Shown here: positions 12,781 to 15,975 of the stretch, in pieces
Layout: each line of letters opens with the position of its first letter
Position numbering within the stretch: position 1 is the stretch's first letter
Made by a program: the position numbers and the translations under genes
Notes under the pieces: generated by a model
What the model was told of the DNA's origin: nothing
Database searches by the model: none
Seen by the model: only the letters and a program-made list of their open reading frames with translations
Assembly (NCBI GenBank): GCA_025353925.1
Contig: JANXNV010000108.1
Coordinates: 1-33,888 of the forward strand
Direction: 5' to 3'
DNA length: 33,888 nucleotides
From: Armatimonadota bacterium
GTDB lineage: Bacteria; Armatimonadota; Armatimonadia; Armatimonadales; Capsulimonadaceae

Positions 12781-12809
12781 TTGACATTTTTCCAGTTTAT
12801 TTGTATACT
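12781..12809 (+). promoter_or_regulatory. Consensus sigma-70 promoter of glnA leader
   Basis: TTGACA (12781-12786), 17 bases, TATACT (12804-12809). This is a near-perfect housekeeping promoter with optimal spacing. Transcription should begin near 12816, leaving a leader of about 165 bases before glnA. The leader carries a terminator-like hairpin described separately. Confidence 0.75.
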
Positions 12810-12850
12810 CAACACAGTACCGAAAAGCAGCCGAAACACAGACGTTTCTG

Positions 12851-12909
12851 CGCAGTGCGAAGACCCATGATTGCCATTTGTCTCTTCGCTGCGACAGAGG
12901 CGTTTTTTT
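12851..12909 (+). terminator. Attenuator-like terminator and alternative helix in the glnA leader
   Basis: The 5' arm 12873-12882 (GCCATTTGTC) pairs with 12893-12901 (GACAGAGGC), with one bulged A and one G-U pair. A G and seven Ts follow (12903-12909), an intrinsic-terminator layout. The ten-base loop plus one base (12883-12893, TCTTCGCTGCG) also pairs with upstream 12851-12863 (CGCAGTGCGAAGA) through 11 base pairs with a two-base bulge. The two helices interleave, so they can form an H-type pseudoknot or compete. Since the start point is about 12816, this either attenuates glnA or ends a small RNA of roughly 93 bases. A 16-codon frame (12867-12917) also runs through the hairpin. Confidence 0.5.
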
Positions 12910-12980
12910 GTGCCTGATTTATCGTTATACCGCGCACCGTCATGCTTTCAAACTAAATCCCAAGGAGACAGATTTTTTCA

Positions 12981-14399
12981 ATGGCCAAAACACCCCAGGA
13001 TGTACTGACGCTGATCAAGGACAAAGACATCAAGTTCGTCGACGTCAAGTTTGTTGACGTTCCCGGCACGTGGCAGCATTTCACGATGCCCGCGCATCGT
13101 TTTGAGGAAGAAGTCTTCACCGTCGGCTTGCCCTTCGACGGCTCTTCGGTCCGGGGCTTCCAGACCATTGACGAATCGGATATGCTCCTGATCCCCGACC
13201 CCGAGACCGCGGTGATGGACCCGTTCACGGAGGTCGCAACGCTGTCCATCATCGCCGATGTCGAGGACCCGATCACCCGCGAGAAGTACCCGCGCGACCC
13301 TCGCAATATCGCGAAGAAAGCCGAAGCGTATCTGCAGTCCACGGGAATTGCCGATGTCGCGTACTTCGGGCCGGAAGCCGAGTTCTACGTTTTCAATGAC
13401 ATCCGTTACGGGCAGACCGCGAATAGCGGCTTTTATTCCATTGATTCGGACGAAGCCGCCTGGAACACGGGCCGCGACGAAAAGCCGAACCTCGGCTACA
13501 AAATGCGGACCAAAGAGGGCTACTTCCCGGCTCCGCCGTCTGACACCCTGAGTGATCTGCGCTCGGAGATGGTGCTGACCCTGCTGGAAGCCGGGATCGA
13601 AGTCGATGTCCATCACCACGAAGTCGGCAATGCCGGTCAGTGCGAAATCGGCATCAAGTTTGACTCACTGGTCACCATGGCCGATAAGCTGATGATGCAC
13701 AAGTACATCGTCAAGAACACCGCCGCTCAGAACGGCTACACCGCCACGTTCATGCCGAAGCCCATCTTTCAAGACAACGGCTCGGGGATGCACACCAGCG
13801 TCTCGATGTGGAAGGGCAACACGAACATTTTCTACGATGAGAAGGGCTACGGCTCACTCTCCGAGACCGCGCTGTACTACATCGGCGGCATCCTGAAGCA
13901 TGCCCGCGCCCTGCTGGCGTTCGGCGCCGCTTCCACAAACTCCTACAAGCGCCTCGTGCCCGGCTACGAAGCCCCGATCAACCTGGTCTACTCGGCCCGC
14001 AACCGCTCCGCCGCCGTCCGCATTCCGATCGCGGGCAGCCCGAAGTCCAAGCGTGTCGAGTTCCGCGCCCCGGACCCCACCGCAAACCCCTACCTGCTGT
14101 TCGCCGCCATGGCGATGGCCGGGATCGACGGGATCCAGAACAAGATCATGCCGCCCGCTCCGGTCGACAAAGACATCTATGAGCTGGCGCCCGAGGAGAA
14201 AAAGGGAATTGCCCAGACCCCCGGCACCCTTGCCGAGTCGCTGGAAGCCCTGGAAGCTGACCATGAGTTCCTGCTCAAAGGCGATGTCTTCACGCAGTCG
14301 CTGATCGAGACCTACATCGATTACAAGCGTGTCCGCGAGATCGAGGGCGTCGCCCTGCGGCCGCATCCGTACGAGTTCTTCCTGTATTACGACGCCTAA
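12981..14399 (+). CDS. glnA: Glutamine synthetase, type I
   Basis: GlnA makes glutamine from glutamate, ammonia and ATP, the entry point for nitrogen assimilation; the active enzyme is a cytoplasmic dodecamer. The 472-residue length is typical of GSI. Visible motifs are the N-terminal [18 protein letters not shown], the metal-site [38 protein letters not shown], and [10 protein letters not shown] with the ATP-site arginines. Y400 in [11 protein letters not shown] sits at the position adenylylated in the GSI-beta group. A Shine-Dalgarno (AAGGAGA) lies just before the ATG. Expression probably responds to the leader structure at 12851-12909. Confidence 0.97.
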
Positions 14400-14579: not shown

Positions 14580-15287
14580 ATGCACATCGCTTTCAAGGTT
14601 GGCCCTGCTCTGGCCCTCCTCTCCCTGACCACGCTTGCGGCTTCATCAACGTTTGCCGCTACGCTGCACGATTACCAGCTCAACGGCACCTATGCCGATG
14701 CCCTGGGCGGTCCACCGCTCTCGCCCGATGGAGGGACGCTCGGCGCGACGGGGTATACATTTGCCGCCAATCAAGGCCTCAATGCCAGTGGTATCACCAA
14801 TGGCTCCGTGTATAGCATCGATATGGTGTTTCAGCTCACCGATATCGGTGGATACCGTAAGATCCTTGATTTCTCAGACCGGGGACCGGACACAGGGCTT
14901 TATATGCTGGATGGTGCATTAAACTTCTACAATGTGGTCACTGGATCATCGACAATCGCTGCGAACCAGACGGCGGACGTTCGGCTGGACCGCGACGCGG
15001 CAGGAACCGTGACCGGATTTGTCAACGGAGTCCAAGAAATCCAGTTCGCCGACACCGGGAATATTGCCGTCTTCAATACTCCCGCCCAGATAATGCGTTT
15101 CTTCGAAGATGACAATGCGACCGGGCAGCACGAAGCCTCCGGTGGATTTGTGGACAGCATCACAATCCGCTCGGACCCTGTCCCCGAGACATCCACGTCG
15201 ATGTCGCTGGGCCTGCTTGTCGCACTTGGCCTCGGCACGCTTGCCTTGACTACACGCAAACGCGGCTTCTTAACGAAAGGTCACTAA
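14580..15287 (+). CDS. PEP-CTERM surface protein, LamG-like
   Basis: This 235-residue exported protein has a signal peptide (about 1-25, ending TFAAT). The body is a beta-rich LamG/concanavalin-like jelly roll: SIDMVFQLTDIGGYRKILDF, then TADVRLDRDAAGTVTGFVNG. A C-terminal sorting signal starts at V201: VPET, a hydrophobic helix (LGLLVALGLGTLAL) and a basic TTRKR end. Such proteins are processed by exosortase and released to the envelope or an exopolysaccharide matrix. No exosortase gene lies in this window. AAGGAAA precedes the ATG, and the sigma-54 promoter at 14512 drives it. The sorting motif has Thr where Pro is canonical. Confidence 0.8.
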   Translation: MHIAFKVGPALALLSLTTLAASSTFAATLHDYQLNGTYADALGGPPLSPDGGTLGATGYTFAANQGLNASGITNGSVYSIDMVFQLTDIGGYRKILDFSDRGPDTGLYMLDGALNFYNVVTGSSTIAANQTADVRLDRDAAGTVTGFVNGVQEIQFADTGNIAVFNTPAQIMRFFEDDNATGQHEASGGFVDSITIRSDPVPETSTSMSLGLLVALGLGTLALTTRKRGFLTKGH

Positions 15288-15288
15288 T

Positions 15289-15975
15289 ATGAAACTTGCG
15301 CAAAAATTGAGTGCCGTTTTCTCTCTGGCACTCGTCGGATGCACCCTCGCCGGAAATGTCCAGGCTGCTAACCTCATCACCAATGGCAGCTTCGAGACCG
15401 GGAATTTCGTCAACAACGGCAACGGAGCCATGTCGCTGGCGGTCGGAGCGACGGATGTGACCGGATGGAAGGTTACGAACGCTGAGATAGCCTGGACGAC
15501 CAACCTGAATTCTTACGGCCTCACCGCTTCGGATGGCTCGTATTTTCTTGACTTGACCGGCTATCACGACGCAGTACCCTACGGCGGTGTGACGCAGACG
15601 ATCAACACGACACCCGGACAAGCATACACGTTGGCATTCAATTTGGATGTCAACCAGTCCGATGGCCGCTACAGCGGCCCGGTTGGGATCCAAGCAGCGG
15701 CGGGAAGCACCAGTCAGGCATTTACATTTAATCCGTCGGGTTCGGGAAACCAATTCGGTCTCTTCGGATTCAATTTTGTCGCAGCGGCTTCTACGACTGC
15801 GATTACATTCACCGGAACGCAGGGCAATCAGTACATTGGCCTCGACAATGTATCCGTCATCTCGGCAGCTGTGCCCGAATCGTCTGCCATGACTTCGCTG
15901 AGTCTGCTGTTGGGGCTGGGTGGGGCATCCATATTTGCCGGGACTCGCCGCAAAACTAGGAAAACCTCGAGTTAA
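15289..15975 (+). CDS. PEP-CTERM surface protein, DUF642/choice-of-anchor-like
   Basis: This 228-residue exported protein has a signal peptide (1 to about 26, ending NVQA). The body begins NLITNGSFETGNF and contains GYHDAVPYGGVTQTI and GQAYTLAFNLDVNQS, the pattern of DUF642-like carbohydrate-binding beta sandwiches in secreted proteins. The sorting signal starts at 195 with VPES, then a hydrophobic stretch and a basic RRKTRK end. It begins one base after the preceding PEP-CTERM gene's stop, with AAAGG nearby, so both are expressed from the sigma-54 promoter at 14512. It probably sits in the cell envelope or matrix. The ligand is unknown. Confidence 0.8.
   Translation: MKLAQKLSAVFSLALVGCTLAGNVQAANLITNGSFETGNFVNNGNGAMSLAVGATDVTGWKVTNAEIAWTTNLNSYGLTASDGSYFLDLTGYHDAVPYGGVTQTINTTPGQAYTLAFNLDVNQSDGRYSGPVGIQAAAGSTSQAFTFNPSGSGNQFGLFGFNFVAAASTTAITFTGTQGNQYIGLDNVSVISAAVPESSAMTSLSLLLGLGGASIFAGTRRKTRKTSS

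Follow-up and report, generated by a model that had tools for sequence, protein, structure and literature searches.

In the clostridial GlnR-glnA system, an ANTAR protein is thought to control glnA through antitermination. In M. tuberculosis, the ANTAR protein Rv1626 (PdtaR) is paired with PdtaS, which is a kinase of the HisKA_2 type. Nitrogen genes are known to be under ANTAR control more widely: ANTAR-target RNAs contain hexaloops whose first base is A and whose fourth is G (A1/G4), the second copy of the hexaloop overlaps a terminator, and most of these RNAs lie before nitrogen genes, including genes for glutamine synthesis (PMC3369931). The same paper states that in E. faecalis, P1 (the first of the two hairpins) is required in vivo. 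The minimal binding unit for ANTAR is a single hexaloop (PMC8934654). ANTAR targets in mycobacteria overlap the start codon or the ribosome-binding site and act on translation (PMC8164766).

Here we consider the leader of glnA in a window of 33,888 nucleotides (the whole stretch of DNA that was analyzed) from the 4.03-Mb draft genome of a member of the Armatimonadota, probably of the family Capsulimonadaceae, judging by its relatives. The promoter, the two hairpins described below, and glnA are all on the forward strand. glnA (12981-14399) encodes a glutamine synthetase of 472 amino acids, and PF00120 and PF03951 are both over the cut-off. Directly after glnA, at 14580-15975, are two neighboring secreted proteins whose C-termini resemble PEP-CTERM-type sorting signals by eye; one of them has a DUF642 domain. 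The glnA promoter (12781-12809; TTGACA-17-TATACT) matches the consensus at 11 of 12 positions, in agreement with the first-pass annotation, and its two hexamers are common to all five leaders in this family that have the hairpin element (the window's leader and those of four relatives). Transcription is predicted to start at about 12816. We propose, with a probability of roughly 0.72, that the leader is a transcription attenuator under the control of an ANTAR-domain RNA-binding response regulator, and that it is a variant without a detectable P1. Because the leader joins an off-switch hairpin to an ANTAR-type hexaloop hairpin, it is probably an RNA-binding two-component regulator, and not a metabolite-sensing RNA, that switches nitrogen assimilation.

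The off-switch is an intrinsic terminator (12840-12909). Its 18-bp hairpin, in which 12840-12857 pairs with 12887-12893 and 12895-12905, has a predicted energy of -31.2 kcal/mol and overlaps a tract of seven T's at 12903-12909. The outer arms (12840-12850 and 12895-12905) pair with a probability of 0.99-1.0, and each of 200 dinucleotide shuffles folds less well than the leader itself (z = -3.3). The first-pass annotation had already noticed a hairpin followed by seven T's, and also that 12851-12863 is complementary to 12883-12893, which is real (-11.5 kcal/mol as an isolated duplex). However, it combined this complementarity with a short hairpin (12873-12882 with 12893-12901) into an H-type pseudoknot, which we rejected: the short hairpin has a predicted energy of just -5.0 kcal/mol, with pair probabilities between 3e-7 and 4e-7, while the complementary segments form the inner part of the much more stable nested hairpin. 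The interleaved order arose because a weak local hairpin was chosen, and the nested pairing accounts for the same complementarity.

The terminator is kept, with compensatory changes, in five of the six glnA genes of the family. When five leaders are aligned, with the variable tip of the terminator excluded, the terminator helix is 95.6% paired and has four compensatory pairs, and its covariation score was reached by none of 500 shuffles. Within the order, a covariance model built from the five leaders matches just these glnA leaders (E = 1e-10 to 1e-12), one per genome, plus a single weak match at E = 0.48. We had also considered a repeat or a mobile element, which was rejected given that the matches are confined in this way. 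Another potential explanation for a terminator in this position is leader-peptide attenuation, as an ATG-started ORF of 16 codons begins at 12868 and reads through the terminator. However, this ORF contains zero glutamine codons and lacks a persuasive ribosome-binding site, and visual inspection of the related leaders did not reveal a clear equivalent; leader-peptide attenuation is almost certainly not the explanation.

Just upstream of the terminator, and sharing one strand with it, is a hairpin that the first reading overlooked (12833-12848; GAAAC-ACAGAC-GUUUC). Its hexaloop (12838-12843) has A1 and G4, as in the P2 hairpin of ANTAR-target RNAs, and we interpret it as an antiterminator. The last four bases of its loop and its 3' arm (12840-12848) serve in the 5' arm of the terminator as well; the two hairpins are therefore mutually exclusive, as P2 and the terminator are in ANTAR-target RNAs. 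Equilibrium folding of truncated RNAs indicates that the small hairpin forms first: its probability is 0.94-0.99 up to about 12894, 0.29 at 12899, and 0 at 12905. A matching arrangement is found in the glnA leaders of the four relatives, with GGAAC-AUAGAU-GUUCC in one and GAAC-ACCGAC-GUUC in three species. Across the five species, the loops (ACAGAC, AUAGAU, or ACCGAC) vary at positions 2, 3, and 6, but A1 and G4, and also A5, are invariant, so that all of them have the hexanucleotide loop on a short stem, with A1 and G4, that characterizes ANTAR targets. The stem itself shows one compensatory pair in the five sequences, which shuffles often match (178 of 500), and the pattern GNAACANNGANGTTNC is not specific by itself.

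The strong promoter and the terminator would yield an RNA of about 93 nucleotides, ending at about 12909, even if read-through were not regulated, as with a constitutive partial terminator or a small-RNA gene. But a constitutive terminator leaves unexplained why A1 and G4 are conserved in a hexaloop that overlaps the terminator, and also the link with ANTAR genes, and we consider unregulated termination to be quite improbable. Conditional read-through, which the first-pass annotation had proposed, is instead well supported, as the terminator is conserved and covarying and is overlapped by the antiterminator-like hairpin. A small RNA of about 93 nucleotides is compatible with attenuation, as a possible product of termination.

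A ligand-sensing RNA had been suggested as the cause of the conditional read-through. A glutamine sensor would fit a terminator in a glnA leader, and the known glutamine riboswitches (the glnA RNA and the Downstream-peptide motif) are similarly placed before nitrogen-assimilation genes. However, no Rfam family reaches its gathering threshold in a scan of the leader, and the three matches found up to E = 10 do not include a glutamine riboswitch. Furthermore, the conserved parts of the leader are the 16-nucleotide hairpin and the terminator only, with no aptamer-sized segment. It is very unlikely that the leader is a metabolite-sensing RNA or a thermodynamic switch that works without a protein partner.

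Control by an ANTAR protein fits the gene content of the genome, which has two REC-ANTAR genes: ANTAR1 (contig C206, 568-1143; 191 amino acids) and ANTAR2 (contig C37). The closest solved relatives of ANTAR1 are Rv1626 (1s8n), which is the nearest, and EutV. ANTAR1 keeps 7 of the 11 residues of EutV that contact RNA, and two more are conservatively changed (as mapped by eye, with an inferred numbering offset of two). ANTAR1 is also 88-96% identical in four relatives. The sole HisKA_2 kinase of the genome, which has two GAF domains, is on the same contig as ANTAR1 (C206, 2939-4741) and is of the EutW/PdtaS type; its homolog directly adjoins ANTAR1 in two relatives (G002 and G004). We infer that ANTAR1 is the protein that acts on the leader. 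Speaking against this link, another genome of the family (G003) keeps ANTAR1, though its glnA leader (L009) is short and has neither the hexaloop nor the terminator.

It is also conceivable, but unlikely, that a different RNA-binding protein reads the attenuator, or that ANTAR2 does so instead of ANTAR1. ANTAR2 has Q at two positions, corresponding to M172 and R175 of EutV, that are essential for RNA binding by EutV, and we looked for ANTAR2 but did not find it in G005, which has both the leader and ANTAR1. Conversely, ANTAR2 also seems to be connected with nitrogen, because its orthologs in five genomes of the order are clustered with genes for P-II and amtB, and in G001, which has the leader and the kinase, ANTAR2 is the only ANTAR protein seen. 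However, the absence of ANTAR1 from G001 is uninformative because the contig ends before the place where ANTAR1 is expected. In the five genomes with the conserved neighborhood, the second REC-ANTAR gene is about 2 kb from amtB (G014:C46, G015:C237, G017:C133, G018:C632, and G002:C1:5183895-5187443), and the P-II gene lies between the two in four of them. A scan of the fetched sequence around amtB and the P-II genes in this order did not bring up a clear attenuator like the one at glnA.

We propose that the attenuator works as follows. RNA polymerase, starting from about 12816, would make the hexaloop hairpin (12833-12848) first. If this hairpin were not bound, the terminator (12840-12905) would displace it once the 3' arm of the terminator emerges (after about 12894), and transcription would stop at about 12909. 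If a sensor kinase activated the REC-ANTAR protein, its ANTAR domain would bind the hexaloop, at A1 and G4, and would keep the small hairpin closed; this would block the base of the terminator, beside the U tract, and glnA would be transcribed. In this scheme, we infer the binding by ANTAR, the signal, and the direction of regulation. The most important step of the mechanism is proposed by analogy, because P1 is needed in vivo in E. faecalis yet was not detected here. Specifically, we did not find a P1 with an A1/G4 or G1/G4 hexaloop between the start point and P2 in the window's leader, and no P1 hexaloop was detected in the window's clade. The start point is about 16 nucleotides from the small hairpin, which leaves little room for P1.

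Compared with the eut system of E. faecalis (EutV/EutW), the leader has the same kind of A1/G4 hexaloop, with its 3' side forming part of an intrinsic terminator, and the genome has the same kind of proteins, with a HisKA_2-type kinase near a REC-ANTAR gene. However, eut needs both P1 and P2, whereas the leader has just a P2-like hexaloop and the gene is glnA. The predicted ANTAR RNAs at nitrogen genes also have a terminator-overlapping motif before a nitrogen-assimilation gene, but those predictions were built on the dual-hairpin model (PMC3369931). The PdtaS/PdtaR system includes the nearest solved relative of ANTAR1, but its mycobacterial targets act on translation, while the glnA leader has a terminator. 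We suggest, tentatively and at somewhat worse than even odds, that in this family an ANTAR antiterminator switches glnA with one hexaloop and no recruitment hairpin, so that the dual requirement seen in E. faecalis is not universal, and that the dual form has been retained in the glnA leaders of other families in the phylum.

Dual hexaloops and a terminator are present before glnA in five other families of Armatimonadota: f15 (L278), f22 (L026), f24 (L181), f33 (L198), and f5 (L013-L016). These leaders closely resemble the published dual ANTAR motif, although position 1 is G rather than A in some of the loops of f33 and f5, and the P1 hairpins of L181 and L198 were identified by eye. Across the phylum, we searched for hexaloops closed by a C-G pair in 100 glnA leaders, 85 from genomes with ANTAR proteins and 15 from genomes without. 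A1/G4 hexaloops were found in 21 of the 85 leaders, as compared to 2.2 ± 1.4 in shuffles, and in none of the 15 (Fisher P = 0.04). If loops with G at position 1 are included, which was decided after the leaders had been seen, these numbers rise to 35 of 85, as compared to 4.5 ± 1.9 in shuffles, and are still 0 of 15 (P = 0.001). Both P values ignore relatedness, and the counts are of sequences rather than of independent events. Similarly, in 2.2 Mb of strand-wise sequence, which is rich in glnA loci, we found 20 distinct terminator-overlapping hexaloops of the (A/G)NNG type, as compared to 2-9 for other loop types.

As far as the available text of the earlier work goes, both the form with one hexaloop and the set of glnA leaders across the phylum appear to be new. 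If our interpretation is correct, ANTAR-controlled attenuation extends to the main gene for nitrogen assimilation in a phylum that has been little studied, and the guess of a riboswitch can be replaced by a named candidate pair of regulators. Also, the leaders form a natural series, some having one hexaloop and others two, which makes the need for P1 in antitermination directly testable.

Finally, similar layouts occur in other bacteria. The glnA leader of a Kineothrix (L109, 1820-1860) has a single A1/G4 hexaloop (AAGAAC-AAAGGC-GUUCUU), which lies directly behind a promoter-like sequence and overlaps a terminator. This leader is from an unrelated phylum, which suggests that the single-hexaloop leader is a recurring form. 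It is also a point of likeness, in leader layout, between the window's leader and the clostridial GlnR-glnA system, which belongs to a different phylum. In a metagenome-assembled genome from the Acidobacteria (L051, 1823-1867), the glnA leader likewise contains an A1/G4 hexaloop (AAGAC-AGCGAA-GUCUU) that overlaps a terminator.
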